Below the pieces are notes generated by a model. It was not told the origin of the DNA. It searched no databases and saw nothing but the letters and a program-made list of their open reading frames with translations. Below, piece by piece: positions 2,951-53,718 of a stretch of 64,000 nucleotides of DNA. Origin of the DNA: Phormidium tenue FACHB-886 (GTDB lineage Bacteria > Cyanobacteriota > Cyanobacteriia > Elainellales > Elainellaceae); the NCBI RefSeq assembly GCF_014764505.1, contig NZ_JACXWX010000002.1, forward strand, positions 124,001 through 188,000. The letters are read 5' to 3'. Positions within the stretch are counted from its first letter, which is position 1, and each line of letters starts with the position of its first letter. Position numbers and translations under genes: made by a program.

Positions 2951-2962
2951 GAAGGAGCCATC

Positions 2963-4459
2963 TTGTCTGTTCGATCGCCTGTAGGAGTCCACGATTCCTC
3001 GCTTCTCGCAAATTCGCCTACCTGCCCCGGCTTGTTCTACACTATCGCCGCGCAGGACGGGCAGCTAGTTCGCATTCGTATACCGGGCGGCTTGCTCAAC
3101 GGTTCGCAGTGTCGAGTGTTGGCAGAGGTTGCTGAGCAGCTGGGAAACGGAACAATTGACATTACAAACCGCGCCAATATACAAATCCGGGGGCTGCGAT
3201 CGGCAGTTCCAGCCACGATTTTGTCGCAGCTGCAGACGGCTAAACTGGCAGCGCCTTTAGGCGAAGTGGATCATCTCCGCAATATTATGGCAAGCCCAAC
3301 AGCGGGGATCGATCCAGCTCAGCTCCTGGATACCCGTCCCGCTGTGTGGGCGTTAGATGCGTATCTTGGCAGTGATGCTGCCTTGGCTGGGCTATCTCCC
3401 AAATTCAGCATTGGCTTAGATGGAGGCGAACAGGTTTCGATCGCCCAACAGCCCAATGACATTCGCTTGACGGCGATTGAGTATCCGGGTGATCTGGAGC
3501 TGGCGGCTGGGGTTTACTTCCGGCTAAGTTTAGCAAAAGCGGATGCAAGTCCGAACCCACAAATTTTGCTGAAACCAGAAGCCTGCGTTGCTGTGATAGC
3601 GGCGCTGGCAAACCTTTATCTCGCTCGGGTTCGCCAGATGCCAGAGGTACAGCTATCTGTTCGCAAACCGCGATTGAAACAAATTTTGACGAGCGTCGAT
3701 CTGACAAGCTATTTGGTTGGCAGCGTTGAGGGTGTTGCTGTTGTTCATCGCCCTGTAGATTCCCCTTGTGGTGCCGTCTGCGTGCCTTTAGGGATTCATC
3801 CCCAGCGAGATGGACGATCGTTCTTGGGGCTTGCCTTGCCCTTGGGACGGTTGCAAACTAGCCAGCTGCGGCAGCTTGCAGACTTAGCAGAACGCTACGG
3901 CAACGGCTGGCTCCGGCTGACGCCTTGGCGAAATTTGCTGCTTGCCGATTTACCGAACCACCACCTTGCCGCGGTGCAGCAAGCTATCGATCGGCTCGAC
4001 CTATCTGCAGCCGCAACTAGTGCTTGGGAGGGGATGGTTGCCTGTTCTGGCAGCACGGGCTGTGCCGCTTCTGCAACTGATACTCAGTCCGATGCCCTCA
4101 CCCTCGCTGCATCCCTAGAGCAACTGCCGTTAGATCAGCCCATTACGATCCATTTCAGCGGCTGTTCTAAGTCTTGTGCCCACCATGGCAGCAGCGACCT
4201 AACGCTTGTCGGGGTACAGAGCGAGACTGCGATCGCCAGCTATCAACTTTATGTGGGCGAGTTGGATGCAGCAGGCAAGGCGACCCAGCCTTTTGGGCGG
4301 CAGCTAGCAGCAGATTTGCTGCCGTCTGAGTTATCCCAGCGAGTGACTCAGCTATTGTCGCTGTATCAACAGCGGCGATCGCATTCCCGCCAAACTTTTC
4401 GGGAGTTTGCTAATCAGCACTTCACTCAACTGCAACACTGGTTCGATAGCGAGAAATAG
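2963..4459 (+). CDS. cobG: Precorrin-3B synthase-like protein (CobG family)
   Basis: Nitrite/sulfite-reductase-like iron-sulfur enzyme of cobalamin synthesis; the family makes precorrin-3B. The 498-residue protein has the duplicated ferredoxin-like half-domains (RIPGGLLNGSQCRVLAEVAE near the N-terminus and a second copy near LPLGRLQTSQLRQLA). It has the Cys pairs expected for the 4Fe-4S/siroheme site, CSGSTGC and CSKSC, at about residues 360-405. I chose TTG at 2963 because it follows GGGGAAGGAG at normal spacing. An in-frame ATG at 2864 lies inside the riboswitch aptamer and would add a non-conserved 33-residue leader. cobH follows 2 nt after the stop, indicating one operon. Confidence 0.88.
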   Translation: MSVRSPVGVHDSSLLANSPTCPGLFYTIAAQDGQLVRIRIPGGLLNGSQCRVLAEVAEQLGNGTIDITNRANIQIRGLRSAVPATILSQLQTAKLAAPLGEVDHLRNIMASPTAGIDPAQLLDTRPAVWALDAYLGSDAALAGLSPKFSIGLDGGEQVSIAQQPNDIRLTAIEYPGDLELAAGVYFRLSLAKADASPNPQILLKPEACVAVIAALANLYLARVRQMPEVQLSVRKPRLKQILTSVDLTSYLVGSVEGVAVVHRPVDSPCGAVCVPLGIHPQRDGRSFLGLALPLGRLQTSQLRQLADLAERYGNGWLRLTPWRNLLLADLPNHHLAAVQQAIDRLDLSAAATSAWEGMVACSGSTGCAASATDTQSDALTLAASLEQLPLDQPITIHFSGCSKSCAHHGSSDLTLVGVQSETAIASYQLYVGELDAAGKATQPFGRQLAADLLPSELSQRVTQLLSLYQQRRSHSRQTFREFANQHFTQLQHWFDSEK

Positions 4460-32916: not shown

Positions 32917-32952
32917 AATACCGCCGCTGCCTAGGCAGCGGCGGTATTTTTC
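32917..32952. terminator. Terminator between ctaE and tmRNA
   Basis: Near-perfect palindrome: AATACCGCCGCTGCC (32917-32931), TA loop, GGCAGCGGCGGTATT (32934-32948), followed by TTT. It ends 18 nt after the ctaE stop and directly abuts the tmRNA 3' end, so it can terminate both converging transcripts (A-rich flank on the other side). Confidence 0.92.
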
Positions 32953-32953
32953 A

Positions 32954-33339
32954 TGGAGCTGACGGGAGTCGAACCCGTGTCCGCCATGGTTATTAGGACT
33001 CCATTCATTCACAGGTTTAGCTTCGGTTACCCTCGAAGCGGGGATCGCCTCTTATCCCAAGCGATGGGATTCTCTGGTAAAGTCTTAGTCAGTAGCCAAC
33101 CAGAGGTGGCTAGCTGAAGCATCCGTTGGGGGTAGTTCCACAGTCCTTAACGGAGTCAAACTGCAGAAGCTCGAACCTATGAGAGGTTTTTAGGCAGCAA
33201 CTAGTGCTTGCTTACGAGCAAAGGGTACGATGTTGTTCGCATGTACACTGTTTGAGCCTTGGATTTGCGAGAGGAGACTCACTCTCGACCTGCATCACAA
33301 AGTCTCGTTCGCCAAAACGTCGAAACCGTTACAGCCCCG
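32954..33339 (-). ncRNA. ssrA: Transfer-messenger RNA (tmRNA)
   Basis: One-piece tmRNA, about 386 nt. The 5' end GGGGCTGTAACGGTTTCGAC pairs with the 3' end GTCAGCTCC(A); the T arm is ACGGG TTCGACT CCCGT. The tag reading frame (33190-33240) encodes ANNIVPFARKQALVAA followed by TAA, close to the typical cyanobacterial tag ANNIVPFARKAAPVAA. It releases stalled ribosomes and tags products for ClpXP-type proteolysis. CCA is not encoded. Confidence 0.98.
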
Positions 33340-37431: not shown

Positions 37432-38160
37432 TTAATACCTGGGTTGCCCAGTGTACCCTTTGCCATCCGGCATGATTGCAAAATCTAACCGTGCATTGTT
37501 TAGATTGGCGTTTTCCAAGTTTGCCCGTGATAGATTGGCATAGCGCAAATCGGCTCCACTCAGATCGGCTCCACTCAGGTCGGCGTTTTGAAGGAGCGCC
37601 CCATAAAGACTCGCATCCTGTAGGTTGGCGTTATGCAGCTTGGCAAAGGTGAGGTCTGCATCTCGCAGTTCTGCTTGCTGCAGACTAGCATTGCGGAGGT
37701 CGGCTCTGGAGAGGCTGCTGCTAAGTAGTTCTGCTTGACTGAGGACAGCGCGGCGCAGATCGGCTTCTTTCAAATCGGCTCCATAAAGATGTGCCTGCGT
37801 TAGGTTGGCTTGCTGCAGGTTGGCGTTGGGGAGGAGCGCGTTAATCAGTTTTGTATTCGTGAGGTTGGCTTGGCTTAGATCGGTCTGCGTCAAATCTGCA
37901 CGGCTCAAATCTTGGTCGTGCAGATCGACTTTGGTTAAGTCGCACTGTACACAGCGATTATTTTCTGTCAGCCGTTGCTGTGCTGCATCGCCTCTTAATC
38001 CATCGGGAGGCAGCAATCGTGGCTGTTCTGTATCGGCGCCTGCTGCTTGAGCAGACGATGGCTGGACGGGCTGCGGCGCAAACCTTTCAGACAGATGGAT
38101 CGCTAAAGGCAGGATAGCAGCAAGAATTGCAACAGTAGTAAGTAGTGTCTGGATGTTCAT
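37432..38160 (-). CDS. Pentapeptide-repeat protein with N-terminal membrane anchor
   Basis: A 242-residue protein. An N-terminal hydrophobic segment (IQTLLTTVAILAAILPLAIH) and a linker to about residue 60 precede a run of A(D/N)LXX pentapeptides from NNRCVQCDLTKVDL to the end (for example ANLTNTKLINALLPNANLQQ and ADLSGADLSGADLRYANLSR), forming a right-handed quadrilateral beta-helix. The NRCVQCDL start, with two Cys, is typical of cyanobacterial members. The start ATG overlaps the stop of the CheW-like gene (TGATG), so translation is coupled. Its place at the end of a chemotaxis-like operon suggests a scaffold or signalling role (inference). Confidence 0.9.
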   Translation of the reverse strand: MNIQTLLTTVAILAAILPLAIHLSERFAPQPVQPSSAQAAGADTEQPRLLPPDGLRGDAAQQRLTENNRCVQCDLTKVDLHDQDLSRADLTQTDLSQANLTNTKLINALLPNANLQQANLTQAHLYGADLKEADLRRAVLSQAELLSSSLSRADLRNASLQQAELRDADLTFAKLHNANLQDASLYGALLQNADLSGADLSGADLRYANLSRANLENANLNNARLDFAIMPDGKGYTGQPRY

Positions 38161-38738
38161 CAAAATCTGGGGGGAAGCGATCGCGACAGAGTTTGTAGCA
38201 GCAGATCAGGATTGAGCAGAAACATTGGGGGCTGATCCGCCACAACAACCAAAGCACTGACACACTGGATAGCTCCTTCTGCTAGATAAGCAGAAGGCAA
38301 TGGCTTAAACGCAGATAGCGGTACCTGCTGAAGTGAAGGCGGTGTATACAAAGGAATACCTACTCGTTCCTGCGTAACGTTCTGTGTGCCGTTCTGCAGA
38401 ATCAGCAGAAAAGAGGGGCGGGGCAAAGGCTGAGCTGCCGTATGCGAGGATGCCTGCAGGCGCGGTAGCGTATCTCCAGAGGAGAATTGCTCCGCTTCGG
38501 CATTTTGGTTACCAAAAATGCGCTGAGCCGCATCGATTACCAAAATTTCTCGATCTCGATAATGTGTGAACTGTAGCCCATTGCCTGTAGGCGCACCATA
38601 AACTTGTTCCACTTCCAATACTCTTTCAGCCGCCTGAATTGGCAAAGCAAACCACTCTTGCTGAATGTAAAACACAATCAGCTTCTGGGTGGCTTCAACC
38701 CGGCGATTCGCAAGGCGGTAAGAAAGGGCGGAGGACAT
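38160..38738 (-). CDS. CheW-like protein downstream of pixL
   Basis: A 192-residue CheW-domain protein. EATQKLIVFYIQQEWFALPI, then AAERVLEVEQVYGAPTGN and YRDREILVIDAAQRIFG match the CheW/CheA coupling fold. An insertion of ~40 residues (SSGDTLPRLQASSHTAAQPL) follows the first half, and LLILQNGTQNVTQERVGIPL with MFLLNPDLLLQTLSR completes the fold. It is 260 bp after pixL and directly coupled to the pentapeptide gene. It could be an alternative coupling protein to PixI for the CheA-like kinase (inference). Confidence 0.82.
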   Translation of the reverse strand: MSSALSYRLANRRVEATQKLIVFYIQQEWFALPIQAAERVLEVEQVYGAPTGNGLQFTHYRDREILVIDAAQRIFGNQNAEAEQFSSGDTLPRLQASSHTAAQPLPRPSFLLILQNGTQNVTQERVGIPLYTPPSLQQVPLSAFKPLPSAYLAEGAIQCVSALVVVADQPPMFLLNPDLLLQTLSRSLPPRF

Positions 38739-38998: not shown

Positions 38999-41900
38999 TT
39001 ACTCCACCAAAGTTCCTAGCGTTTGCAGTAACACTTGTTCGTTGTAAGGTTTGGAGAAGTAAGCACTGGCTCCCAAATTCATGGCAAGCTGTCGGTGTTT
39101 CTCGCCGCTGCGAGAGGTGAGCATGGCAACAGGGATACTCTCTAGCGGTGGGCTGGATTTAACTTTGGCAAGGAAGCCGTAGCCGTCGAGCCGGGGCATT
39201 TCAATATCGCAGATGACTGCATTAACCTGCAACCCGGCACTAAGCTTGTCGAGGGCATCTTGTCCGTCTTTGGCTTGGGCAACCTGGTATCCAGCTTTTT
39301 CAAGGGTGAGCGCCAGCAGGCGACGAACATTGATTGAGTCGTCGATGATTAGAATAGTGGGCGGGCGTTCGGGCGTGTAACTCGAAAATTCGGGGGGGAA
39401 TGAGCTAGAGAGGGGGGTGTCGGGGCGGGCGGTGGGCAGCAGTGGGGCAGTGGGATAGGAGACGGCATCGGCTTGTGACCGTTCGCAGCTAGCGATCCAA
39501 CGCAGTAGCTCAGGTAAGTTGACCAGCGGAACGACGCGCCCATCACCGAGGATGGTGCAGTTAGAGAAGCCCGGAGGCATCGGTAAACCGCCTTCAACTC
39601 TGCGAATGGCGACCTCTTGCTCGCCCCAGCTTCGATCGACCTGTAGCCCGACAATTTGATTGCCCTGCGACAGCAGCAGCACAGTGGGTACAGAGATCGA
39701 CGCCTGAGTATCTAGTCCTTCGGGTGGGTAGGTACGGCGAAACTCTAGCCAGCGCGAGAGGCGAATGAGCTGCACCATAATTCCTTCCCAGGTGAAGGCT
39801 TCGCTGCCTGCAGTGGTAATCACCTGCTCTGGGGGCAGCAGCAGCATTTCTTCGATCGCGTCGATGGGAAATGCCATTAGCATGCCGTTGCTTTCGGCGA
39901 TCAGAACGCGGGCAACTGAGAGCGTAAAGGGAACCGACAGCGTGAAGGTTGTACCCACGTTAGGCTGTGTGTCTACCTTTATTTCGCCATGGATTTGCCG
40001 GAGATGATCGCGCACCACATCCATCCCCACCCCCCGACCTGAGAGAGGAGTCACTTCGTCGTTCGTGCTAAAGCCCGGCTCAAAGATTAGCGACAGCAGT
40101 TCCTCGTCGCTGGCAGCCGCGAGTAGCATCTCATCGAGTCCCATTTGCCGCGCTTTAGCCCGGATCTTCTCTAGCGGGATACCGCCACCATCGTCCCGCA
40201 GGGTGATAACCGTGCGGTTATTGCGGTGAAAGGCGCGGATTTCGATCAGCCCTTCTGCAGCTTTGCCCCGCTCACGGCGGATTTGGGGAGCCTCGATGCC
40301 ATGATCGAAGGCATTTCTCAGCAGGTGCAGCAGCGGATCGCTCAAGGCTTCCAACACATTGCGATCGATCGGTGTATTGGCTCCATGAATCTGAAGCTGC
40401 ACGGGCTTGTGGTATTGCAGAGACAGCTCACGGATTGCTCTAGGAAAGCGATCGGTAATATCAGAGAGGGGACGCATCCGCACTTGGTTCAGCTTCGTGC
40501 GGAGCTGGCGAGAGGTTTTGTTGAGTTCTCTAGAGGTTTGTTCGGTGTCGTCTAGGCTCAGCTCAATATCGCTATTGATCTCCTGAATCTGGACAATGGT
40601 TTCCATTACTTCTTGAGACAGCAGATGGAGATCGTCATAGCGATCCATTTCTAAGCTGTCGAAGCGGTGCAGCACTGCGCTAGAAGGGTTAGCAGTGGGC
40701 GGAGTGCCGTTGCCAACCTGCGAGGCATGGGGCGATCGCCAGTCGGGTAACGAGAAACGGGAATCGGGCTGATGAGTAATGCGATCGTAGGCGTCCCGCA
40801 GTTCGGAATTAGATTGTTCTAAAATTTGTACCCGCTGAGTCAGGGAAACGGCTAGGTTGCGTAACCGCTTCAGGTGCAGATCTAAGCCATTCCGTTCAAT
40901 GGTCAGTTCACCAAATAGATCATTGAGCTGGTCTAATTGCTTGGTGGAGACACGCACCGAATTTTCAGGCGCTTCTCTTACAGTGGCTGAGTCTAAACTG
41001 ACTTCAGGCACCCGAAATTCAGTCACTTTGCCGGCCGTCATGATCGGCTGCTGCGACCGTACTGGTGGAGCCTGTAGCTGGGAGCGCTGGCTGCCCGGCT
41101 GGGAAAGGTCTGAGGGAACGACTTCAGAAATAACTTCTGCTTCAGTAAGGTTTGCTTCAGTTTCAGAGTACGCAGAGTACAATGGCACAACTTCTGAATC
41201 TGCGATCGTCACTTCTGCAAAATCATCTGCGATCGCTGCTGCCCCAAAGTCTTGAGTCCCAAGGTCTTGTGTCTCAAAGTCTTGTACCTCAAAACCTTGC
41301 GCTTCAAAAACTTGGGCAACTTCAGAGACCAAAGCAGCGTCAGAGACTGAAGCAGGGTCAGAAACCGGATCAAAGCCAGAAACCGAACCAAAGTCAGAAA
41401 CCGGATCAAATGTAGAAGCTTGAGCCACCTCAGAGTCCAGCTCGAACTCAGATTGAGGCACCTCAGCCTCAGCAGCTTGGTCGAACTCAGAAACCGGATC
41501 AAATCCAGCCTCAGAGTCTTGAGCCACCTCAGAGACCGGACCGAACAATGATTCTGTGATCTCAGCCGCTTCCCAATCCATCCAGGCTGGCTCTACTAGC
41601 TCTATTGGCTCTACTTCAAAGCTGAGTCCATCTAGCGCACTGGGTAGTGCCTCAAAATTTCCTGTGAGCACAAGCGCTTGCGATCGCCGCCACGTTTGCA
41701 GCGCTAGCTGCGCTACCTCTGCCACTTGCTCAGCTGGGGCAGCCATAATCGCCTGTGCTACAGAAACGCAAAGATGGCTAAAAGCAGTGAGCTGCAGCAT
41801 TTCGCCCAGTCCGCCTAGCTCTTGCGCCAAAATCTCTACTTCCTCGCGCAGGCAGGGCGACTGCTCCTCAATCACCGATTCCAGCCGGATCAAGCAGCCC

Positions 41901-42415
41901 TCTACTTCCGTTTGGAACAGCATTGGGATGATTTCTTGCCCTTCTTCCGGAGAAAGAATCGAGTTGGCATCTTCGGCTTCTGGATCGCCTAAGCGGTCAT
42001 GTAGCCGCTCAAAGATGGGAGTGGCATGTTGCTCTAGCCAGTGGAAGTCGGTGGATGCGCTGCTATCACCGGACTGTGAAGTAGCTGCCCGGTCGTAGAC
42101 GATCACCTGCCGCAAGCAATCAACAGCGTTGAGCAACAAGCCTTCTAGCTCTGCATCTGCATCAACAGTATGGCGCTGAACTTTCAAAACCTTGAATGAG
42201 TCTTCTAGGCGGTGTGCCATTTCGCTCAAGGTTTGGAAACCCATCATGCCTGCTCCTCCTTTGATGGAGTGAGCCGATCGCAGGGCTGCATTCACCTTGT
42301 CAATATCAACGCCGCTTGATGCCAAGCCCAATAGCGCCGCATCCAGCACCCCCAGGTACTCCTGCGCTTCATCGAGAAACTGAAGCCGAATTTCAAGTTC
42401 CTTATCCTGTGACAT
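38999..42415 (-). CDS. pixL: PixL: CheA-type hybrid histidine kinase with C-terminal receiver
   Basis: Central kinase of the phototaxis-like pathway. ATG 42415 gives 1138 residues; a GTG at 42445 would add 10. Order: Hpt domain with phospho-His 49 in RSAHSIKGGAGMMGF; a second degenerate Hpt-like region to ~280; an acidic low-complexity linker (~285-397) with repeats of FDPVS(D/E)F; dimerisation and HATPase (LLHLLRNAFDHGIE, LRDDGGGIP, GRGVGMDVVRDHL); CheW domain (VLIAESNGMLMAFPIDAIEE); receiver (~1010-1138: LIIDDSINVRR, phospho-Asp in ICDIEMPRLDG, Lys in FSKPYNE). This matches Synechocystis PixL. It lies 58 bp after pixJ. Confidence 0.9.
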   Translation of the reverse strand: MSQDKELEIRLQFLDEAQEYLGVLDAALLGLASSGVDIDKVNAALRSAHSIKGGAGMMGFQTLSEMAHRLEDSFKVLKVQRHTVDADAELEGLLLNAVDCLRQVIVYDRAATSQSGDSSASTDFHWLEQHATPIFERLHDRLGDPEAEDANSILSPEEGQEIIPMLFQTEVEGCLIRLESVIEEQSPCLREEVEILAQELGGLGEMLQLTAFSHLCVSVAQAIMAAPAEQVAEVAQLALQTWRRSQALVLTGNFEALPSALDGLSFEVEPIELVEPAWMDWEAAEITESLFGPVSEVAQDSEAGFDPVSEFDQAAEAEVPQSEFELDSEVAQASTFDPVSDFGSVSGFDPVSDPASVSDAALVSEVAQVFEAQGFEVQDFETQDLGTQDFGAAAIADDFAEVTIADSEVVPLYSAYSETEANLTEAEVISEVVPSDLSQPGSQRSQLQAPPVRSQQPIMTAGKVTEFRVPEVSLDSATVREAPENSVRVSTKQLDQLNDLFGELTIERNGLDLHLKRLRNLAVSLTQRVQILEQSNSELRDAYDRITHQPDSRFSLPDWRSPHASQVGNGTPPTANPSSAVLHRFDSLEMDRYDDLHLLSQEVMETIVQIQEINSDIELSLDDTEQTSRELNKTSRQLRTKLNQVRMRPLSDITDRFPRAIRELSLQYHKPVQLQIHGANTPIDRNVLEALSDPLLHLLRNAFDHGIEAPQIRRERGKAAEGLIEIRAFHRNNRTVITLRDDGGGIPLEKIRAKARQMGLDEMLLAAASDEELLSLIFEPGFSTNDEVTPLSGRGVGMDVVRDHLRQIHGEIKVDTQPNVGTTFTLSVPFTLSVARVLIAESNGMLMAFPIDAIEEMLLLPPEQVITTAGSEAFTWEGIMVQLIRLSRWLEFRRTYPPEGLDTQASISVPTVLLLSQGNQIVGLQVDRSWGEQEVAIRRVEGGLPMPPGFSNCTILGDGRVVPLVNLPELLRWIASCERSQADAVSYPTAPLLPTARPDTPLSSSFPPEFSSYTPERPPTILIIDDSINVRRLLALTLEKAGYQVAQAKDGQDALDKLSAGLQVNAVICDIEMPRLDGYGFLAKVKSSPPLESIPVAMLTSRSGEKHRQLAMNLGASAYFSKPYNEQVLLQTLGTLVE

Positions 42416-42473
42416 AAAGTGATGCTTCCTAGAGAATTTTGGCACTCAGACAGCGGGTTACACCATCTGAACG

Positions 42474-45400
42474 CTACAAGTTGCCCACCTCGAACTCATC
42501 CACCGATGCCTGCAGCTCCTGAGCCACTTCTACCGTTTGCCGCAAAGCGCGGGAGACTTGGCGAGAGGAGTTGGAGGTTTCTTCGGAGATAGCGGCAATT
42601 TGTTTCATTAGCTGAGCAACAACGCCAGAGGTTTCTACTTGAGAGACAGTGGCACTGGAGATAGACTGCACCAGATCGTCGATTTGACGGGAAACTTCCA
42701 GAATTTGACCGAGGCTGTCTTTGGCATCTTCTACGAGCTGCGTTCCCTCAACCACTTGGGCGGTGCTTTGCTCCATAGCTTCCACCACCTGAGTGGTTTC
42801 GCGCTGGATCGTATCAACAATCTTTTCGATCTCCTGAGTTGCGGCAGCACTGCGGGCAGCCAGTTCGCCCACTTCTTCTGCCACCACCGCAAAGCCCTGC
42901 CCTTCTTCTCCGGCACGGGCCGCTTCAATGCCTGCGTTGATCGCCAGCAGGTTGGTTTGCATAGCGATTTGGTTAATCAACGAAACCACTTTGGAGATCT
43001 GCTGCGACGATTCACCGAGGCGCTTCACTTTCTTTGCCGTTTCGCCAACGGTTTCGCGCAGCGCCAGGATATTTCGCACGGTCAGATCCATCGCTGTGCC
43101 GCCTGCTTCTGCTGTTTGGGAAGCGTTACGAGCAACCTGTGCCGCTTGATGAGCGCTATCTGCCACTACCTGCATCGATCGGGTCATTTGCTCCACTGAG
43201 TTGAGGGTGCGCGTAGTTTCCTCAGCTTGGCGTAGTGCTTCATCGGCTAAGTGATGAATCGCTCCTTCGTTCTCGCCCAGTGAAACGTTGACACGCTCAG
43301 CAGATTCTTTGACTTTGGCAACGATTTGCCGCAGGCTCTCTACAATCGAGTTGAAGAAGTCGGCAACTGTACCAATTTCGCCAGCCGTGACATCTGCCCG
43401 CACCGTGAGATCGCCCCGCGTTGCGCCTTCAACATCCGTCAGCAGGTTAATCAGCTGGATCTGCAAAGATTCGCGCTGCTGGCGCTGTTCTTCTGACAGT
43501 GCTTCTGCAGCAAGACGGGCTTCCTCCCGCTCCGCAAACAGATCTGCTTGATCCAGCGAAAAGCCGAGCTGAGATGCCACCTCGCGAATCAAGTTAATTT
43601 CGCCTTCTTGCCAAACTCGAGGGGCATCGCACTGATGGGCAATCAACAAACCAGCTAGCTCTTTTTGAGCCAGGATGGGAGCGATGAGATTGGCTTTGAC
43701 TTTGAGTGGCTCTAGCTGCCCGATGTGGCAAGGTGTCAACTCGGCTTCGTAGATGTCATTGATGGCTTTGACACGTCCCAAGCGATACGGCTCGATAAAC
43801 TTCTCAGCAAAGCAAGGATCGGCAATTGTGGAGTAGAGCGCAGTTGGATAGCGAGAATCGACTGATTCTGCAACAAAGGTGCCTTCCCATTTCTCGTTAA
43901 ACAGATAGAGCGCCACACGATCTGTTTTCAGCGATTCGCGCAAATTGTTGACCACGGTGGAATAAATGTCCTCCCGCTTCAGCGACCGCCGCATCTGCGA
44001 GATGATGCGGTTTGCTTCCTGCTCTTGGTAGGCGATGGCTTGTTGCTGCTGCAACAGCTTGGCTTGCGTTAGCGCATAGCCAACCTGCGTGGTGAGCTGC
44101 TGCATCAGGTCGATATCTTCTTGCTCCCAGACGCGTGGACCAGAACACTGGTGGGCGCAGAGCAAGCCAATTAGCGTATCACCCGTGATGATCGGCGACA
44201 CCAGATTGGCTTGCACTTCCAGCCGCTCCAAAATCTCACAGTGGCAGCGGCTTAGATTTGCTGTTGCCAAATCTTCGATTTTAGAGATCTTGCCGCTGCG
44301 GAAGCGCTCAACTGAACCTGGAAGCAGCGGGTCGTGAATTGTCTGACCGAGTGCTTTCACCCATCCCTCGCCCACAGACTCTGCCGTAATTTCGCCGCTC
44401 TTGTAGTCAGGTGCAAACCTGTAGATCAGCACCCGATCAACCTGAAGAAGTGCTCGCACCCCTTCCACAGAGGTTGACAAAATCTTTTTGGCGTCTAGCG
44501 ATTGCCGGATCTGCAGCGTCACATCGGTAAGCATTTTGGCACGGCTGGTTACCAACTCTTGGCGACGGCTTTGCTCCTGTAGCATTGACTCACTTGCCAC
44601 CATCGTGTCTGCTAGATCGTTAAAGGCAATTGCCAGTTCGCCGACTTCATCCCGCGCAAAAACTTCGGCTCTGGCTTGTCGATCGCCCTCCGTAAACTTC
44701 TGGGTTGCCCGTCTGAGCGTTTGGATCGGACTCACAATTGAGCGTCCTAAAATTACTGCCAGCCACACATCAAGGATGATTGCAATTGCTGCAATCACAA
44801 GTTGCAGCAGCAGGCTATCTCGTAGAGTTTGGTTTAGCGCCGCTTCGGACGTGCCGCGTGCCAAAATGGCCACAGGCTGCCCTTTGAAGTCATTCAATGC
44901 CTGCATCGACAGCGTGTAGGTTTCGCCGTTGATCTCAACGCGATCGCTGACAACTTCACCCTCAGCGCTAACGGCAGCTTGCAGCAGGTCTGTATTAGGG
45001 AGCCGTACGCCCGATTCTGCTTGCTCTAGGTCTGCTTCGTCTTGCAGATATAGCGAGCTAGAGAGCGAAAAATTTCCGGTTGCTTCACGCTGATAAACAG
45101 CGCTGTAGCCATTCTTAAATGTCTGCAGCGCTCCCTCAACAATCGGCGTTTTGCTATTGACGACATCACCTGCTACCAGCGCACCGATCGTCGCCCCGCT
45201 ATCTGGATCTTTAACAGGCGTGACCACATAGCGAATTAGCGAATCTTGTTCGTTGAATCCTTCGGGGAGCGATGGTGCTTCCTTTTCTAGCTCCGACCAG
45301 GTAACAATTGCACTCGTTTTAACTTGGCGTGGATTGGCGAGCACAGTGCCCACCAATCCTTCCGGATCAAATCGATCACCTGCCCGATTTTTGTTGGCAT

Positions 45401-46013
45401 TGGCAATGATTCTTAAATCAGTGCCCACCAGCGTCGCATATTCAATGTCGCGAGCTGCTACTTCGTTGGCAAGCAGGTCTTGCAGGCGAGAGCGGGTATC
45501 TGCAGAGAGCGATCGTCCGGCAGCGCTGTCTCGGGCTGCTTGCACTACGGCAGAATTGCCAACCTGCTCCCGGAAGCTGGAACCTATCTGATTGAGTTTA
45601 GTGTTGTATGCCAGATCGGTGACGGCAAGTTCAGTCTGTGACTGGTTTACTAGCTGCGCATGACCGCTGCGGATAATTAACCAAGTCCCTACCCCCACCA
45701 GACCAACGATCGAAATTACCTCAGAGGCAATCAGCGCGATCAGCTGCTTGCGGCGGATGGGTTGTTCATAAAACCAGCGCAACCGTGAACCTTCAGCCTT
45801 TGTGCTGGCAGAAACGCCAGGATAAAAGACAGCTTTGTTGCTAACCAGCGGAGCGGGCTGGTTTGTGCCGTTTGTACTTGCAATTACATCCTGGGTAACG
45901 CTTTCATTAGAATTTGTGCCATTCACTGAGCCGTTAACAGAGCCGTTGGCAGCCGACAGCGAATCTTCTGCGGAAGTCCGATTGGAAGGAGCTTGACGAG
46001 GGTGGAGGGTCAT
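42474..46013 (-). CDS. pixJ: PixJ: phototaxis receptor, GAF-GAF methyl-accepting chemotaxis protein
   Basis: Membrane photoreceptor and chemoreceptor-like protein of 1179 residues (ATG 46013). Order: variable Asn/Ser-rich N-terminus, TM1 (~90-114), periplasmic domain (~115-397), TM2 (~398-420), HAMP, GAF1 (~500-650), GAF2 (~670-830), then HAMP-like region and MCP signalling hairpin ([20 protein letters not shown]). GAF2 has the bilin-binding Cys-His ([10 protein letters not shown], Cys ~762) and a DXCF motif (IADPCFAEK, Cys ~734) 28 residues before it. This is the arrangement of DXCF blue/green cyanobacteriochromes such as TePixJ. GAF1 has Cys-His (SRCHCEIL, Cys ~590) but DPLL in place of DXCF. 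It follows pixI by 1 nt. Confidence 0.92.
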
Positions 46014-46014
46014 A

Positions 46015-46521
46015 TCACGAGTTTCGAGTTTGGAGGACGGGAGATTGGGCGATCGCTTCAGCATCCAGTACCAGCAGCACTTCTTTTGTTTGCTGCTGCA
46101 AAACACAACCGCGTAGATAAGGCAGTAGCGTTGTTGAAACCTGACCGACGGGCGATTGGATTGTGTCTGCTTCTAGCCGCATGATGCCCTCCACCTGGTA
46201 GACTGCCAATCCCAGCGGCACAGATCCTACCTGGATCAATATCAATGTGTACTGCTGGCTGCTAGCGGCATCGAACACGGCAAGCCCCAGAAGCTGTGCT
46301 AGATCAACCACCCAAATGACGCGGCTACGGCGGTTCATCAATCCCATCATGGGTGCAGGCACGTTGGGCATTGGCGTTAGGCGGCGCGATGGCAAGATCA
46401 TTGCCTCTTGGATATACCGCATCGACAGCACAGCCGGAATTTGCCGCGATAGATGAAATTTGAGATAAGTTTCCCCAGCTTTATGCAGGCTACTGGCAGG
46501 GGCGATCGCAGAAGAAGTCAT
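46015..46521 (-). CDS. pixI: PixI: CheW-type coupling protein
   Basis: Adaptor that links PixJ to the kinase PixL. From ATG 46521 the protein has 168 residues. [20 protein letters not shown], then [20 protein letters not shown] and [20 protein letters not shown] match the two-barrel CheW fold. The stop and the pixJ start are 1 nt apart (TGATATG), so translation is coupled. An in-frame ATG further upstream (46596) lies in low-quality sequence and is not preferred. Confidence 0.85.
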
Positions 46522-46620
46522 AGAGGGGGAAGGAGACAGAATGGGGGAACAGAGGAGAGGAGAATGACTTGGATGGGGCGTAAGCAACAGACGCAAAGGC
46601 TGGCTTCCCCCACTTTTTTG

Positions 46621-46998
46621 CTAATTGGCGACAGACTTAATCACGCGCACAAGCTGTTCTCTAGTGAACGGCTTGGTAATATACGCATCTGCGCCTTGCT
46701 TCATTCCCCACAGCCGATCAATTTCCTGATTCTTGGAGGTACAAATAACGATCGGTGTCGTTTCTGTTGCCGGGTTTTTTTTGAGGCTGCGACAAAGCTC
46801 AAAACCACTCATTCCAGGCATTACCACATCTGTGATAATGACATCTGGCTTTTGATCGATCGCTTTATTCAAGGCTTCCTTAGCGCTAACTGCATTGATC
46901 ACAAAGTAGCCACTTTCCCGAAGATAATAGCTCATCAGCTCCATTTCTGATGGAGTGTCTTCAACGACTAGAATCGTGTCCATTAACGTGGTACTCAT
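46621..46998 (-). CDS. pixH: PixH: CheY-type response regulator
   Basis: Stand-alone receiver of 125 residues from ATG 46998. TILVVEDTPSEMELM supplies the acidic pocket, VIITDVVMPGMSGFEL the phospho-Asp, VICTSKNQE the Thr position and YITKPFTREQ the Lys. It matches the PixH/PilH position in the operon, upstream of the CheW gene. The longer frame to 47136 adds residues without similarity. Output is by contact with pilus or motor components (family knowledge). Confidence 0.9.
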   Translation of the reverse strand: MSTTLMDTILVVEDTPSEMELMSYYLRESGYFVINAVSAKEALNKAIDQKPDVIITDVVMPGMSGFELCRSLKKNPATETTPIVICTSKNQEIDRLWGMKQGADAYITKPFTREQLVRVIKSVAN

Positions 46999-47175
46999 TC
47001 TCAATATCCTGTAACGACCTAAAAGGATCAAAAGATCAAGTGGTTTGATGCTGTTAAAAGACTGCTCAGGGCAACTCAATTTCTGATTGCAGCTACATAT
47101 TTCAGGGATAAAAGCTTGAATCCGGAGATTGAGCAAACGAAGGAGACAAATTTTGTGCTCTCACTCCTGGCTTGC

Positions 47176-48240
47176 CTAGTTCAAGTGTTTGAACACCATC
47201 TTAATTAAGTCAGGCTGTGTGAAAGGCTTAGTCAAATACCCCGATGCGCCCACCAGTTTGGCTTTTGCGCGATCGATGAAGCCGGTGTTGCCTGTCACCA
47301 TGATGATTGGGGTTTGTCTGAAGCTGGGGTGCTTTCGTAGCAGTGAGCAAAGCTCGTAGCCGTCTAGATTAGGCATGGTGACATCAAGCAAGATGAGATC
47401 TGGCTTGGTGCGGATCACCTGCATCAGCGCTTTGATTGGGTCGTTGATGAGCACAACTGAGAAGCTTTTGTCATCCAGGAAGGAGTTGATGGCTTGCAGC
47501 ACAGTTGGGCTGTCGTCGATGCAGGCGATCGTGAAGGTTGTTTTGCCAGAACCATCAGCCGGACGCGGAGCAGGCGGACGATAGGCAGACTGTCCCTGCG
47601 GCTGAGAACCTTGAGCAACATCTTGGCTTGGGTTGGCAGCAGGATTCTGGATGCGGCTCTGCAGATTGGAGCTAAGCGTTCGCGCAGCGATGCTGGATTG
47701 CCCCGTCGAGCGGCGGCGAAGATTCGTTTGGCAGTGTTCTACTAAAGGACGCGGATCAAGTTGGCAAAATTTGGGAAAACCGCTGAGGAGGTCTTGCTCG
47801 ATCAGTTCGTAGCTGCCCGTTTGCACAACTAGGAATGATTCCAGCACCTCTTTTGCCAGTTCTTCAATAAGTCCAACGGCTTGCTCTGGAGTAAGGTGCT
47901 GCTGTTCTACGAGCCAGCAGATCGCCTCATAATCTCGACCGTGGGGCAAGTGATTGTCTGAGTTGTTCTCAAACAGCAGGCGCACCTGAACTCGCACTGC
48001 ACTCACCAAACTGGGAACCTGGCTACTGAGACGGCGGAGTTGGCGATCAAGCCGTCCAAATGGATCAACAGTGTTGGAAGTGTAGAGAATCTTACCGTGT
48101 TCCAGATAGATTGCCCAGGTTGTTGTATTGCTCATCACCTGCAAACAGCCATTGGTTTGGCGGCTGTTGAGTTGAGCAATTAGGCTAAGGGGGTGCAGTT
48201 TTTGAGAAGGCTTATATGTGCCCACGGGGAGAGTGTTCAT
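47176..48240 (-). CDS. pixG: PixG: PATAN-domain response regulator
   Basis: First gene of the operon. From ATG 48240, 354 residues. The N-terminal ~200 residues are a PATAN/DUF4388-type domain (LIAQLNSRQTNGCLQVMSNT, then WAIYLEHGKILYTSNTVDPF); a Pro/Gln-rich linker follows; the C-terminal ~120 residues are a receiver (IACIDDSPTVLQAINSF, phospho-Asp in LILLDVTMPNLDGYE, Lys in YLTKPFTQPD). PatA/PixG-type regulators control the site of pilus extension in phototaxis. It is separated from the divergent cellulose operon by 1.5 kb. Confidence 0.9.
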   Translation of the reverse strand: MNTLPVGTYKPSQKLHPLSLIAQLNSRQTNGCLQVMSNTTTWAIYLEHGKILYTSNTVDPFGRLDRQLRRLSSQVPSLVSAVRVQVRLLFENNSDNHLPHGRDYEAICWLVEQQHLTPEQAVGLIEELAKEVLESFLVVQTGSYELIEQDLLSGFPKFCQLDPRPLVEHCQTNLRRRSTGQSSIAARTLSSNLQSRIQNPAANPSQDVAQGSQPQGQSAYRPPAPRPADGSGKTTFTIACIDDSPTVLQAINSFLDDKSFSVVLINDPIKALMQVIRTKPDLILLDVTMPNLDGYELCSLLRKHPSFRQTPIIMVTGNTGFIDRAKAKLVGASGYLTKPFTQPDLIKMVFKHLN

Positions 48241-49814
48241 GACGATGCTCCGGCTCAATTCTAAGGAGGTGGGGAGAAGGCAAAATTGACAGTGCGCCTT
48301 ACAAAAATCGAAGTTTGTTTGAGATGGGTAAAAGCCGATCTCAACTCGCTAGAATGCACCCCGCAACTCTAAAAAATGATTGCACAGGGGCAAATAGCCT
48401 CCGGCATTCGAGCAACAGAAATTGCGTTTAATCTTGCTTTAACTCAAAAGAAAAGTAGAATGGCAGATCTAATAAATCAGGCTACGTCTTGTTGGCAGAT
48501 GACTACCCTTTTTAATCGGAGCAGAAATTCACTGCGCTTGAGCTTTAAACTCCGAGCCTAGTGAATTCATTAGGTAGTAATGCATTCTTTAAATCGATTT
48601 ATTGGTCGATCTGTCAAATTTGCTGAAAGCAACACAGCCTTAGCTGTAAGTTAAGCTATTAGCCGCAAATTAAGCTACTTAGATAACAACGCTCCTCACT
48701 TTCACCTTAAGACTACCAATTTTTACAGATGCCGCTGTAGGAGATTGATAAAGATCCCAGCCTCAACCGTAAAGATAAGATAATTCCAACCGCTCTACCG
48801 CAAATTAGCTAAATAGCTAAGAGCCTGGCGAAGTCAAGGCTGGTGCAAACTGATTCCTTATACTGAGACGATCGCCCATATCCGGAGAATGGAGAAGTAA
48901 TTGCCAACAAAGCCTTTGGAGACAACCCTTCTGAGAATCATTGCCGCTTGAGCAGATGCCCTAAAAACTAGAGGCAAGAACAATTAGCTTAATCCTACAG
49001 CAGCAGGGTTTTAGCTGCTTCCTGCCAGAAAACGTCGAGTTTCGTCTCGGTATTTCTTCCTCGATATTTATTACAGTCGCCTGGCTGCAGTGAAGACTTT
49101 TGTATTTTAGGATACAATATATCGTCGTTCCAGTAAAGTTTGTGTTGCCTTCACATAAAACCTTAAAATTGCTTACACATTCCTTAATTGGACTGCGTTA
49201 AGACTGAATAGAATTCAGCCAGATGAAAGGATAGTTCACGCCAAAAAGCGGTGAAGAAGCTGTCACAAAATCTGATACGATCTAAAGCCGATTCTTTAAC
49301 CCTTGGTTGATTTTTAGCAACTGCTGCTCGAAGTTTTTTCTACTCAATCGGCAATTTTTTCAGCTTGCATTCTTTTTTGTTGCCATTTCTATCCTGAGCG
49401 CGTCTACCCTGATTCGTAAAACAAGTTAGGGGTATTGCATCAAAAATTTTATCTACGGTCGCAGCTTTAACTAGAACCAGCATTGGAATCTAGCATTTCT
49501 GATTAATTTGCATCAGAAATATCGTTGCAACGTCTCACGCAAGGAAGCCTGTCTCGTTTGTATTGAGCTATTTACTTAAAATTGCAAACTGACAAGCATT
49601 CCGCCAAAGCTTTTTGGGGTAGGCATCAACGTTGTTAACAGGATGAATCCTGATTAATGCAGCAAACGCCTCTACCCGCTGGGCGCATCCATACCTATGT
49701 TTGCAAGGGTGATCAGGGTTATTCAACCGGGTAGCCATCTGCATGATCTAGCAATTTGCAAGGGGGTTTGGTGCGCTCCAATTGGAACTGTTTCAGAATT
49801 CTGTGGTAGAAACA
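48241..49814. other. 1.5-kb gene-free gap between the pix and bcs operons
   Basis: AT-rich divergent regulatory region. A short plus-strand frame at 48376-48561 has no ribosome site or recognisable sequence. Small repeats occur (TTAAGCTA near 48650-48680, the palindrome TTAGCT-AAAT-AGCTAA near 48805-48820). It is unusually long for this chromosome and could hold a small RNA or complex promoters; none can be demonstrated from the sequence alone. Confidence 0.65.
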
Positions 49815-51404
49815 ATGTGTCCCCAAGCGACTCACCCTGAACGTCTTGAACCCTCTAACATAATCCGGCTTAGTCATCTACTGCTAGTCGGCGCAATTTC
49901 CACTCTGATCGGCATCGGACTCGATAGCAACCCTGCCCAAGCTACCCAAACTAGCCCATCTGCAACCGATGAGAATACAGCAGCAATTCCCGAATTTTCT
50001 CTAACAGTTCAACCAGATTTGACTGCGGCAGGCGATACAGCAGCAGACGCTAGCGCGACTGAAATAACTGAAACAGATGTAACCCCAGTTGATGCCAGCG
50101 TGACGAATGCGACGGATACAGCCCTAGTCGAAATTGGGGCTGCAGATAGCACATTCTTGCCCAGCTTGCAGCCTGCTGAAGTCAGCTCTGATCCGGAGAA
50201 CTTATACACACCCACAGCGATCGCTGATCAAACGTTGCCTACTTCGGAAGTGACGCTGGAATCCACAGCACAACCTGCAGCAGAACCCGCAGCCCAACCC
50301 CCAGCACAATCCGCAGCCCAACCCCCAGCACAATCCGCAGCAGAATTCACCTCCAACCCCCCCGCTGAAACGCTCAATGCCCAAACCAGTAGCCAAGCGC
50401 CCCCATCCAGCAGCGACAGCCGCATAGAAGCAGACAGCCAAGTGTTAGGCACACCGATCGTCCGAGCACAGGCAGCCTACATTCTGCAAGACGGCGATTC
50501 TTCCGCGCGGCTGCGCCTTACAGGAGCATATCCGGTAACGCCCAATTTGCTGTTTGGTGCAACGCTTGATCTGGTGACAGGCGATGACTTCACTGACTCA
50601 GAAGATGTCGGGTTTGATGTCAATGAACTGTATGTCACCCTAAGCCCAGAAGGGCTGTCCAATGTGCGCCTGACAGTTGGCATGGTGGACTTGACCTCTT
50701 ATTTCGATCGCAACAGCTTCGCCAAAGACTCTGTCACACACTTTTTCAATCCTGTGTTTCAAACCAATCCGGCACTTGCTGCCACGGGGATTGGTTCTCG
50801 CCCGACGCTGCTACTGAACTGGGACATCACCGATGATCTGAACGTGAGAGCCGCTGGCTTTTCTTCGAGCCGCGATTTAGGCAACTTAGACCTCGATGGC
50901 TTTGCAGGGGAAGTGGCGCTCCGCTTGGGCACTTTGATTGTGCGCGGCACTTATGCGACCGATCGTGATGCCGGACAAGACGATGGCTTCCGGGAAATCT
51001 TCCAGTTCAACCGGGGCGACAATCGCTTTGGGCTCCGGTCGGGCGATCGAGAAGAAGCGTTTGGCATTAATGCGGAGTTGTTCATTCCCGAACTCAATCT
51101 GGGTTTGTTTGGGCGATATGGACACTACCAAAATTTGGAACTCGATCGCGGCGGCGACACCTACAGCTTTGGTTTGAATTTATTGGATGTCTTCATGGCA
51201 GACGATCGGCTGGGGCTTGCTTATGGTCGGCAGTTGTCCAACAGCAATCTGCGCGGCGACGACAAAATTCCTGATGTTTTAGAAGCTTTCTATGATGTCC
51301 GCCTGACCCCCAACCTGCGGGCAGGCGTTTCTTTTCAAGAGCGAAATGGCTTCTCAGACACTGTGCTGGGCTTACGCATTCGCGCCGATTTTAACGTCAG
51401 GTAG
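49815..51404 (+). CDS. Outer-membrane beta-barrel protein of the cellulose operon
   Basis: Probably the outer-membrane pore for the polysaccharide. From ATG 49815 the protein has 529 residues: a signal peptide (LSHLLLVGAISTLIGIGLDS, cleavage near AQA), a disordered Ala/Thr/Glu-rich region to ~200 with a 24-bp DNA repeat coding for QPPAQSAA (50289-50336), then barrel strands such as LRLTGAYPVTPNLLFGATLD and LEAFYDVRLTPNLRAGVSFQ. An in-frame TTG at 49782 is an alternative start. The next gene is the TPR protein 13 bp away. In the canonical system TPR and barrel are one BcsC protein; here they seem split. Confidence 0.78.
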   Translation: MCPQATHPERLEPSNIIRLSHLLLVGAISTLIGIGLDSNPAQATQTSPSATDENTAAIPEFSLTVQPDLTAAGDTAADASATEITETDVTPVDASVTNATDTALVEIGAADSTFLPSLQPAEVSSDPENLYTPTAIADQTLPTSEVTLESTAQPAAEPAAQPPAQSAAQPPAQSAAEFTSNPPAETLNAQTSSQAPPSSSDSRIEADSQVLGTPIVRAQAAYILQDGDSSARLRLTGAYPVTPNLLFGATLDLVTGDDFTDSEDVGFDVNELYVTLSPEGLSNVRLTVGMVDLTSYFDRNSFAKDSVTHFFNPVFQTNPALAATGIGSRPTLLLNWDITDDLNVRAAGFSSSRDLGNLDLDGFAGEVALRLGTLIVRGTYATDRDAGQDDGFREIFQFNRGDNRFGLRSGDREEAFGINAELFIPELNLGLFGRYGHYQNLELDRGGDTYSFGLNLLDVFMADDRLGLAYGRQLSNSNLRGDDKIPDVLEAFYDVRLTPNLRAGVSFQERNGFSDTVLGLRIRADFNVR

Positions 51405-51417
51405 GGGGAATGGTGCC

Positions 51418-53688
51418 ATGATTTCAAAAAAAGTTCGACGGCTGTTAGCGGGTGCAATGCTAGGATTCCTATTCACTGCCCTGCCCGTCTCTGCCCAAAC
51501 GTCCAATGCCCCTGCGATCGTCCGCCAAGGCTATGCCCTCCTGAATCGCGGCTGGGTCGATGATGCGATCGACACCTTCCGGCAAGCGCTGCAAGCTTAT
51601 CCGCAGTCGCTGGATGCCAAGTTGGGGCTGGCAATTGCCTATCAAAAAGCCGGACGCGATACAGATGCTTGGCAAGCCTATCAGCAAGTGCTGACTCAAG
51701 CCCCCAGCAATCGCTCCGCCTTGGCTGCCATAGGACAATTGGGCAGCTACCGCCCGGAGTGGCAACAGGGCGGCATTGCCGCGTTAACCACGCTGCTTGA
51801 GCTAACGCCAAACGATGCTGCAGCTAGAGCCCAGAGAGCGCAGCTCTACGCCTATCAAGGCGAGTTTGCAGAGGCGATCGCCGACTACGAAGTTTTGCTG
51901 TCTGCCACGCCTACGCCAGAGACACTGCTGGGCGCAGCACAGGCATATACCTACAGCGGCGACTATCAGCAAGGCGTCGCGTTATTCGATCGCTACCAAG
52001 CCTCTGGCAAACCGATTCCGGACAGCGCCGCCACTGCCTATGCCTTTGCGCTGCAGCAGGTAGGTAACCCAAAAGCGGCAATTCAGTTTCTAGAACCCCG
52101 TCTCAAGCCATCGCTCGATGAAACTTCCATCCAAGTCCGGGCAGCTTTGGCATCTGCCTATGCTGCCGATCGGCAAATTCAGCAGGCAATTTCAACGCTA
52201 GAGCCGCTGCAAGATCGCCCAGAAGCGGTACTGCCGCTTGCCCGCAGCCTTAGCTCGATCGGGCGGCAGGCGCAGGATGAAACTCTTTATGAAGGGGCGG
52301 TGCTGCTGTATCAGCGCGTTTTGCAGCAGACTAGTAATCCGTCTGCCACATTGCTAATCGAAGCAGCAGATGTGCTGAGTGATGCCCCAGAACATCAGGA
52401 CCAGGCGTTGCAGCTCTATGAGCAGGCGCTGGCGCTGCAGGCAGATAACTCCAGCGTGCAGGTGAAGCAGCTGGTGTTGCAGCAGCAGTTGGGGCAAATT
52501 TCTAGAGCGGACTTGCAGCAGCAGCTCAAAACCCTCTTAGGTGGGCTGCCCACCGAAGCCGGAGAACAGCGATCGCTTGCTTTGGCGCTGCTACGAATCG
52601 ACCCGCCCAATCCAGAATTTCTGCCGCTGTTCCAATCTGCCCTGCAAAACGGCGCAGATGTACCCTTTTTCAATTTTCGTATCGCCCAGATTTATCTGCA
52701 GCAAAACGATCTAGCCGCTGCCCGCACAGCAGCTTCTGCTTATGGAGCCACGCCGGTTGGCACACAAGACCCTGCCACCGAATTTTTGCTGGCAGAGATC
52801 GACCGCCTGGAAGGCAACCTGGATGGCAGCGCCCAGCGCTATCAGACGGTGATCGATCGCAGCTTGGGCGATGAAGTGACCAGAGATGCTACGCGTGGAT
52901 TAGCAGGAATTCGGCTGGCGCAAGCACAGCCCGGAGCCGCTCTCCAGCTCTACAAGCAGCTGCTTGCCGCCAATCCCAAAGACGCAGTTAGCCAGCTCGG
53001 AGAAGCTGCAATCTCCTATCAGCTGCAGCAGATTTCTGAAGCAGATGCCACTGCTGTTCTCGATCGCTGGCAGCAAACGCAGCCGCGATCGGCGACCCCA
53101 CCGGAGCTGTTCACGCTCGTCGGCGTTTTGCCTGCCGACACACAGCGTGAAGCAATTTACGATCGCCTTTTAGAAGCTGATCCTCAGAATATTCCTGTGA
53201 ATCTTCGCTGGGTACAGCTCTGGGCAATCCGCGACCCGGACAAAGCAAAAGCAAGAGTAGAACAGCTTTTGGCAAGCGATCGCATTGGCGCTTATTTCGT
53301 ACAGGGTGAGCTAGGGCAAACCTTGGGCGATCTAACATTGGCAGCTCAGTCGTATGAAGCGATTCTGGCGGCACAGCCCAACAATCCCAACGCCCTGTCT
53401 GCTCTCGGTGGTGTTCGCTTCCAGCAAAGACGCTTCAACGATGCCGTTGCCCTTTACAGCCGTGTCTTGGAGCTACGTCCTAACGACCTGGATACCCGCC
53501 GTATCCTGGCAGAGCTGCGTTTGGCTCAAGACCGCCCCTTCACTGCCCTGCAAGAGCTACAGAACTTGCAGCACTCCGACCAATCTTCTGACCAACCTGC
53601 CGACTCAGCTACCAGCGAGCGTGTCCAGCGCTTGCAGGTAGACATCCTTAGACGGCGCGGCTTCCAGCCCTCCTGGGAACGATACTAG
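51418..53688 (+). CDS. TPR-rich periplasmic protein, BcsC N-terminal-like
   Basis: Probable periplasmic guide for the glucan chain. From ATG 51418, after AGGGGGA, it has 756 residues: a signal peptide (RLLAGAMLGFLFTALPVSA, cleavage after VSA) and about fifteen TPR helices (GYALLNRGWVDDAIDTFRQA, AIAYQKAGRDTDAWQAYQQV, ALASAYAADRQIQQAISTLE, AVALYSRVLELRPNDLDTRR). It resembles the TPR half of BcsC, but no C-terminal barrel follows; the protein ends RRRGFQPSWERY. Its upstream neighbour may be the missing barrel. Confidence 0.82.
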   Translation: MISKKVRRLLAGAMLGFLFTALPVSAQTSNAPAIVRQGYALLNRGWVDDAIDTFRQALQAYPQSLDAKLGLAIAYQKAGRDTDAWQAYQQVLTQAPSNRSALAAIGQLGSYRPEWQQGGIAALTTLLELTPNDAAARAQRAQLYAYQGEFAEAIADYEVLLSATPTPETLLGAAQAYTYSGDYQQGVALFDRYQASGKPIPDSAATAYAFALQQVGNPKAAIQFLEPRLKPSLDETSIQVRAALASAYAADRQIQQAISTLEPLQDRPEAVLPLARSLSSIGRQAQDETLYEGAVLLYQRVLQQTSNPSATLLIEAADVLSDAPEHQDQALQLYEQALALQADNSSVQVKQLVLQQQLGQISRADLQQQLKTLLGGLPTEAGEQRSLALALLRIDPPNPEFLPLFQSALQNGADVPFFNFRIAQIYLQQNDLAAARTAASAYGATPVGTQDPATEFLLAEIDRLEGNLDGSAQRYQTVIDRSLGDEVTRDATRGLAGIRLAQAQPGAALQLYKQLLAANPKDAVSQLGEAAISYQLQQISEADATAVLDRWQQTQPRSATPPELFTLVGVLPADTQREAIYDRLLEADPQNIPVNLRWVQLWAIRDPDKAKARVEQLLASDRIGAYFVQGELGQTLGDLTLAAQSYEAILAAQPNNPNALSALGGVRFQQRRFNDAVALYSRVLELRPNDLDTRRILAELRLAQDRPFTALQELQNLQHSDQSSDQPADSATSERVQRLQVDILRRRGFQPSWERY

Positions 53689-53718
53689 CTCTTTCTGCCT
53701 ACCCGTGTTTCTACAGCC

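Follow-up and report, generated by a model that had tools for sequence, protein, structure and literature searches.

The window analysed here is a 64,000-nucleotide stretch of Phormidium tenue FACHB-886 (assembly GCF_014764505.1, contig NZ_JACXWX010000002.1, positions 124,001 to 188,000 of the forward strand), and the open reading frame (ORF) at 42474-46013 on its minus strand looks, from its sequence, like PixJ, a cyanobacterial light-steering (phototaxis) receptor. Read from the ATG at 46013, the translation gives a protein of 1179 aa; the mechanical ORF begins at a GTG, a start that would add 31 residues. Pfam matches and hydropathy together return the PixJ layout of two transmembrane (TM)-like segments, between which residues 110-404 would be periplasmic, followed by a HAMP domain, a GAF region that Pfam divides into two stretches, and an MCP signalling domain. 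The protein has cysteines at 590, 592, 619, 623, 734, 762 and 795. Its gene stands in a same-strand series of DUF4388-receiver protein, CheY-type receiver, CheW, pixJ and CheA hybrid, and counterparts of PixG, PixH, PixI and PixL thus all accompany it. We take this order to be that of the Synechocystis tax1 cluster, and DUF4388 to be the domain also called PATAN. Such an overall architecture is already known; the two GAF domains are the subject of what follows.

The second domain, GAF2, is well supported by sequence comparison as an ordinary DXCF domain of the TePixJ kind. It carries D732-P733-C734-F735 and C762-H763 with the two cysteines 28 residues apart, the combination that marks a DXCF cyanobacteriochrome, and an earlier note on this DNA, made from the letters alone, had read both motifs and the DXCF class correctly. 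The note had also given this spacing for Cys494 and Cys522 of TePixJ, and the TePixJ chain does have it, these being the cysteines named as coupling the bilin (PMC6955287). TePixJ is the best solved relative of GAF2 (E=8.8e-41), and the two fall in one clade in IQ-TREE (UFBoot 86-96) on a branch separate from that of GAF1. DPCF is present in 24/24 aligned GAF2 domains, the window's included, which were taken as the domain following a GAF with the Cys-His-Cys (CHC) signature, DPCF itself being no selection criterion. The note had further held that loss of bilin-pocket residues would count against GAF2; of eight residues named for TePixJ in PMC6955287, six are kept (D492, C494, C522, H523, Q526 and N535), while H498 and W499 are replaced by Lys738 and Phe739. 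Because TePixJ is the best solved relative, a blue/green photocycle on phycoviolobilin (PVB) is expected, as in typical DXCF GAFs, whose PVB chromophore switches between blue and green states (PMC11284453). Since DXCF photoproducts span teal to orange (PMC6628166), 'green' is the least certain part of this prediction.

GAF1 is of another class than GAF2, as the note had proposed, and both the loss of the DXCF position and a clade of its own bear this out. The Cys-His and DPLL that had been reported for it are present (C590-H591 and D561-P-L-L), whereas a one-residue deletion had been overlooked: the profile alignment shows the site of the DXCF cysteine as deleted, not substituted, with an Asp-to-Cys distance of 29 vs 30. 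By alignment, GAF1 is a relative of DXCF GAFs and not itself one. Besides Asp561, Cys590, His591 and Asn603, it has two further class cysteines, Cys592 as the third residue of CHC and Cys619 in a GLLC motif, and neither these nor the commonness of the tandem among relatives had been noticed when the protein was first described, correctly, as having two GAFs. DPL and a cysteine at the 619 position recur in 25/25 aligned GAF1 domains (loci L001-L025), selected on CHC and not on DPL. In a set of 45 GAF1-class domains, all picked for possession of the canonical cysteine, no member departs from Asp561 or His591 at the equivalent positions, and at least 90% keep Asn603. The best solved relative by sequence is PPHK (E=8.2e-38), and the AlphaFold model of GAF1 (mean pLDDT 93.3) matches bilin GAFs, with PPHK chains at the top (TM-score 0.88-0.89, 41% identity). 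GAF1 combines a canonical Cys-His with the GAF fold; a bilin on it is plausible, most likely at Cys590. No characterized CHC-class GAF, and no spectrum of one, was found in the open-licence papers searched or via solved structures, so that GAF1, judged by its motifs, is a member of a conserved class (DP-L, CHC, GLLC) without a known spectrum at a well-studied receptor.

The two domains are equally conserved. Mean identity is 0.579 for GAF1 vs 0.576 for GAF2 over 1275 pairs of 51 tandem proteins, chosen as CHC then DPCF and kept as distinct from 71 found, after 20 with a GAF1 identical to another were dropped. A greater conservation of GAF1, considered because it is the higher of the two in 46/50 comparisons of the window protein, was abandoned, as it holds for only 658/1275 pairs overall. 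We also set aside a DNA pattern for CHC-[EQK]-I-L, matched in 132 of 388 genomes, because it is short, a reversed control also hits and the matches need not be GAFs.

The distribution of the class was followed in 80 named loci, the best of 424 from a scan seeded with the GAF1 alignment. One of the two scan patterns holds LLC[AVG]HQC, and these loci therefore over-represent Cys619 and GAF1-like loci. In each locus a single ORF was tallied, the longest one encoding any of these GAF types. A CHC GAF followed by one or more intact DPCF GAFs occurs in 46/80 loci, as CHC-DPCF (31/80), as CHC-DPCF-DPCF (9/80) or with CHC and intact DPCF arranged in some further way (6/80). The remainder have CHC alone (15/80) or with a broken fragment (2/80), CHx alone (5/80) or in arrays (4/80), DPCF alone (5/80), five DPCF (1/80), or a Cys-less GAF1 with DPCF (2/80). 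In a further set of 30 loci, L001-L025 have a CHC GAF and L026-L030 have none. Gene order was taken from plus-strand BLAST hits within the fetched flanks: pixG-H-I and then pixL follow in order in 51/80 loci, G-H-I only in 11/80 and less in 18/80, several of which end at contig ends. Nine of the 15 CHC-alone loci have pixG-H-I before and pixL after (L074, L077, L079, L081-L084, L089 and L091), and the five CHC-alone proteins scanned with Pfam (L090, L082, L083, L091 and L101) are HAMP-GAF-MCP with one GAF. The DPCF-alone loci L100, L103 and L108 also show the whole pix gene order. As the CHC GAF is the sole such GAF in the PixJ of nine intact pix operons, and a dark GAF1 class would leave those nine receptors blind, we argue that the class senses light.

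Six of the loci with a single-CHC pixJ (L074, L077, L081, L082, L084 and L089) have a second ORF beside it, with a degenerate GAF1-class domain that lacks the canonical cysteine and reads RYR, SYR, RHR or HHR. The three of these paralogues included in the tree have its longest branches, and that of L082, cut by the end of the locus, consists of HAMP and GAF. The GAF1 clade also occurs in a different receptor architecture, MHYT-GAF-PAS-MCP with CHR and DP-F in the GAF, in L097 (Nostoc sp. PA-18-2419).

Two trees bear on the origin of the class, a FastTree of 195 domains of L001-L110 (at least 141 aa, identical ones dropped) and an IQ-TREE of 97 of these, thinned at 72% identity with L029 and short rows dropped. 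Three references, used as the outgroup, represent the XRG class. The CHC domains and the deletion-type CHx domains, together the GAF1 type, fall in a single clade (UFBoot 91), and its CHC core (UFBoot 100) takes in Cys-less members and three CHx domains of L107. This clade joins the single-GAF DPCF PixJ group, represented by L103 in IQ-TREE (UFBoot 100) and by L100, L103, L104, L105 and L108 in FastTree (support 0.977). It lies apart from the GAF2/TePixJ branch and does not group with the XRG references. The trees are most simply read as descent of the GAF1 class from a DXCF PixJ GAF whose second cysteine was deleted. The polarity, loss and not gain, rests on parsimony, because the outgroup XRG is regarded as a descendant of DXCF in its own right (PMC11284453). 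The colour class at the pixJ locus appears, from motifs and gene order, to have been switched or doubled. We put forward tentatively, at somewhat less than even odds, the wider proposal that the GAF1 clade is a separate single-Cys class from a DXCF ancestor, that pixJ lineages hold DXCF, this class, or both in series, and that PixJ has in this way changed its colour class, here to a two-band receptor with yellow-to-red and blue channels on one CheA output.

We propose, with a probability of roughly 0.6, that the window encodes a PixJ membrane photoreceptor of a type-IV-pilus phototaxis operon in which a blue/green PVB-binding GAF2 and a longer-wavelength bilin-binding GAF1 both bias one CheA output. 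Sequence, domains, conserved gene order, the GAF2 motif and the GAF1 clade with its conservation are observed; the bilin on either GAF, all colours, the signal polarity and the link to pili we infer. GAF2 would bind phycocyanobilin at Cys762 and convert it to PVB, with Cys734 adding reversibly to C10, so that the dark state absorbs blue and the photoproduct green (or teal) light. GAF1 would bind its bilin at Cys590; because a DXCF cysteine for addition to C10 is missing there, we expect a dark state at longer wavelength, by our own estimate at ~540-650 nm. With both GAFs in series between the HAMP domain and the MCP tip or hairpin, isomerization in one or the other would alter how the helices pack along a shared coiled-coil axis, and with it the activity of PixL. 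Each GAF would then bias the same CheA (PixL) output, via PixI to PixG and PixH, and kinase activity would be a function of two colour bands, added or opposed; the note had likewise suggested that such a protein could compare two colours. The genome of this strain has one match each for ferredoxin-dependent bilin reductase and haem oxygenase and five for T2SSE, the family that includes PilB/PilT. With 126 GAF matches in 8.93 Mb, it also has a large set of possible photoreceptors.

A bilin-binding GAF1 has to be weighed against the reading that GAF1 is an apo, structural or dimerization GAF and the receptor a single-colour blue/green sensor. Several observations point that way. The domain lacks an equivalent of Q526 (Ile594 in its place) and the residues of H498/W499, and in SyPixJ1 chromophore is reported only on GAF2 (PMC5812497), although GAF1 here keeps Cys-His. 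The equivalent of Cys590 has been lost from the GAF1-class domains of L072 (RHC), L086 (SHR) and L028 (RHY), the first two of which are flanked by pixG-H-I and pixL, as it has been from the degenerate paralogues of L074, L077, L081 and L082. These losses bring no clearly longer branch (L072, L086 and L028 rank 59, 72 and 14 of 77, and the relatives of L086 have equally long branches), and branch lengths therefore cannot show that bilin binding keeps GAF1 conserved. Faster evolution after cysteine loss was considered and rejected as a rule: the top 3/77 branch lengths belong to the paralogues in L074, L077 and L081, and L072, L086 and L028 do not follow. The CHC-alone set is also uneven, since no full operon appears in the fetched DNA of L069, which runs into a contig end, of L101 or of four Moorena loci. 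For some members of the group GAF1 may thus be structural, or one that the receptor can do without. We nevertheless consider an apo or structural GAF1 unlikely, given the invariant Asp561 and His591 equivalents and near-constant Asn603 in Cys-bearing members, a conservation equal to that of GAF2, and the nine intact operons whose PixJ has no other such GAF.

Other readings concern the chemistry of either domain. GAF1 might be an ordinary XRG red/green domain, as it has no second cysteine and shows CHxEI after the canonical cysteine, as AnPixJg2 does; we consider this very unlikely, because Ile559 stands at the tryptophan of XRG, Ile559-His560-Asp561 departs from the WXDXXL motif, the extra residues before Asp seen in AnPixJg2 and NpR6012g4 are absent, and the trees place GAF1 with DXCF GAFs. 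XRG red/green identity is disfavoured on the lack of Trp and tree position. Slightly less probable still is that Cys619 is a relocated second cysteine that adds to the bilin from the D-ring face and gives GAF1 an unusual short-wavelength state. This looked strong: the position corresponds to A350 of AnPixJg2, on the D-ring beta-face, and second cysteines are described at the DXCF site, in an insert loop and in helix alpha3 (PMC6628166, PMC5240096). In a control set of 235 distinct GAFs of at least 130 aa, drawn by likeness to the window's GAF1-GAF2 without a Cys-containing pattern, a cysteine stands there in 25/28 deletion-type GAFs with the canonical Cys vs 32/112 DXCF and 4/46 other GAFs, these 25 being PixJ GAF1 orthologues themselves and so one lineage. 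The same cysteine is, however, present in those 32 GAFs that keep the DXCF cysteine, and it persists in 7/7 GAF1-class domains without the canonical one (L028, L072, L074, L077, L081, L082 and L086, of which L072 and L086 entered via the scan favouring Cys619). A residue that outlasts the bilin anchor probably does not serve bilin chemistry, and the candidate, though it stays as a rival, is disfavoured on these two grounds. Over both sets, 9/19 deletion-type domains without the canonical Cys have it; the seven just named are among these 19, and the other 12 are more distant GAFs. Separately, 26 of the 32 DXCF GAFs with this extra cysteine have DHCF (control set; L029, L112-L165). Least probable of all is that GAF2 is degenerate or forms no PVB: K738/F739 replace H498/W499, and GAF2 of the window protein resembles its orthologues less closely than GAF1 does its own (mean identity 0.527 vs 0.605, with the 46/50 given above), but both cysteines and the other named pocket residues are present, and Ile791 sits where the position elsewhere has a minor supporting role in PVB formation.

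If GAF1 does bind a bilin, the PixJ orthologues at one operon position, with DXCF alone, CHC alone or both, form a series that is a natural test of which domain sets which band of the action spectrum. The series may perhaps also show a DXCF photoreceptor losing its second cysteine outside the XRG lineage.

The features of the receptor and of its operon are collected in the table. About 1.5 kb from the pixG-like gene, on the opposite strand, a cellulose-type operon (49782-58798) adjoins the phototaxis operon, with genes for a protein weakly similar to OprB, a TPR protein, BcsB and a cellulose-synthase-like glycosyltransferase that carries PilZ; within the short flanks of the related loci it is matched in 1/80, L031, and there at the porin-like gene. 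Elsewhere in the window are an AdoCbl-II riboswitch match at 2799-2898 (+), which extends over the mechanical start of an ORF at 2864-4459, and a tmRNA gene match at 32951-33338 (-).

Table. Features of the pixJ gene and the surrounding operon, in window coordinates
Feature	Position	Strand	Basis
pixG-like response regulator with DUF4388, start codon uncertain	47176..48258	-	Pfam; gene order
pixH-like CheY-type response regulator, start codon uncertain	46621..47004	-	Pfam; gene order
pixI-like CheW, start codon uncertain	46015..46533	-	Pfam; gene order
pixJ gene, 1179 aa MCP-type photoreceptor	42474..46013	-	ORF and domains
TM-like segment 1 (aa 91-109)	45687..45743	-	Kyte-Doolittle 2.29
TM-like segment 2 (aa 405-423)	44745..44801	-	Kyte-Doolittle 2.77
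HAMP domain (aa 422-470)	44604..44750	-	PF00672
GAF1 (aa 493-655), DP-L / CHC / GLLC class	44049..44537	-	alignments, tree, AlphaFold model mean pLDDT 93.3
Asp561 codon of GAF1 (equivalent of TePixJ D492)	44331..44333	-	alignment
Cys590 codon, canonical bilin cysteine position of GAF1, then His591	44244..44246	-	alignment
Cys592 codon, third residue of CHC signature	44238..44240	-	alignment
Cys619 codon (GLLC) of GAF1	44157..44159	-	alignment
GAF2 (aa 656-829), DXCF class	43527..44048	-	TePixJ match, alignment, tree
Cys734 codon, DXCF second cysteine (TePixJ C494)	43812..43814	-	alignment with TePixJ
Cys762 codon, canonical cysteine of GAF2 (TePixJ C522)	43728..43730	-	alignment with TePixJ
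MCP signalling domain (aa 959-1142)	42588..43139	-	PF00015, E=1.6e-41 for the protein
pixL-like CheA hybrid kinase (Hpt, HATPase, CheW, receiver)	38999..42445	-	Pfam; gene order
Second CheW-like protein, downstream of pixL	38160..38738	-	Pfam; match after pixL in part of related loci

Among known systems, SyPixJ1 (TaxD1) of Synechocystis PCC 6803 has two TM segments, two GAFs and an MCP domain and is encoded in the tax1 cluster with PixG, PixH, PixI and PixL (PMC5812497), and the window protein, compared with this published description, shares the two TM segments, the two GAFs, the MCP domain and the pixG/H/I/L partners. Its GAF2 resembles that of TePixJ from Thermosynechococcus (3vv4, 4fof, 4glq, 6pru) in DPCF, Cys-His, their spacing and most of the named pocket, and differs in Lys/Phe for H498/W499; the TePixJ structures cover one GAF. 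GAF1 is nearest in sequence and fold to PPHK, a dual-sensor histidine kinase of Leptolyngbya JSC-1 (6oap) in which the DXCF cysteine is likewise absent and which, with phycocyanobilin, absorbs at 562 nm in its Pg state (PMC11480761). Unlike the window protein, PPHK is a histidine kinase and not an MCP, and it has DQYF without the deletion and falls outside the GAF1 clade. Bilin binding and even PVB formation without the DXCF cysteine are described for the Cys-to-Ser mutant of AM1_6305g1 and for the XRG domain MCC3606390g2, and XRG relatives without Trp, which GAF1 also lacks, absorb yellow-orange or form PVB (PMC11284453); AM1_6305g1 and MCC3606390g2 belong to other lineages than GAF1 and are likened to it by description only. 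PixJ is also reported to mediate an effect of yellow light in Phormidium lacuna (PMC13383048), whose closest PixJ homologue contains four GAFs (PMC8794177); by analogy this fits a longer-wavelength GAF1 but does not prove it.

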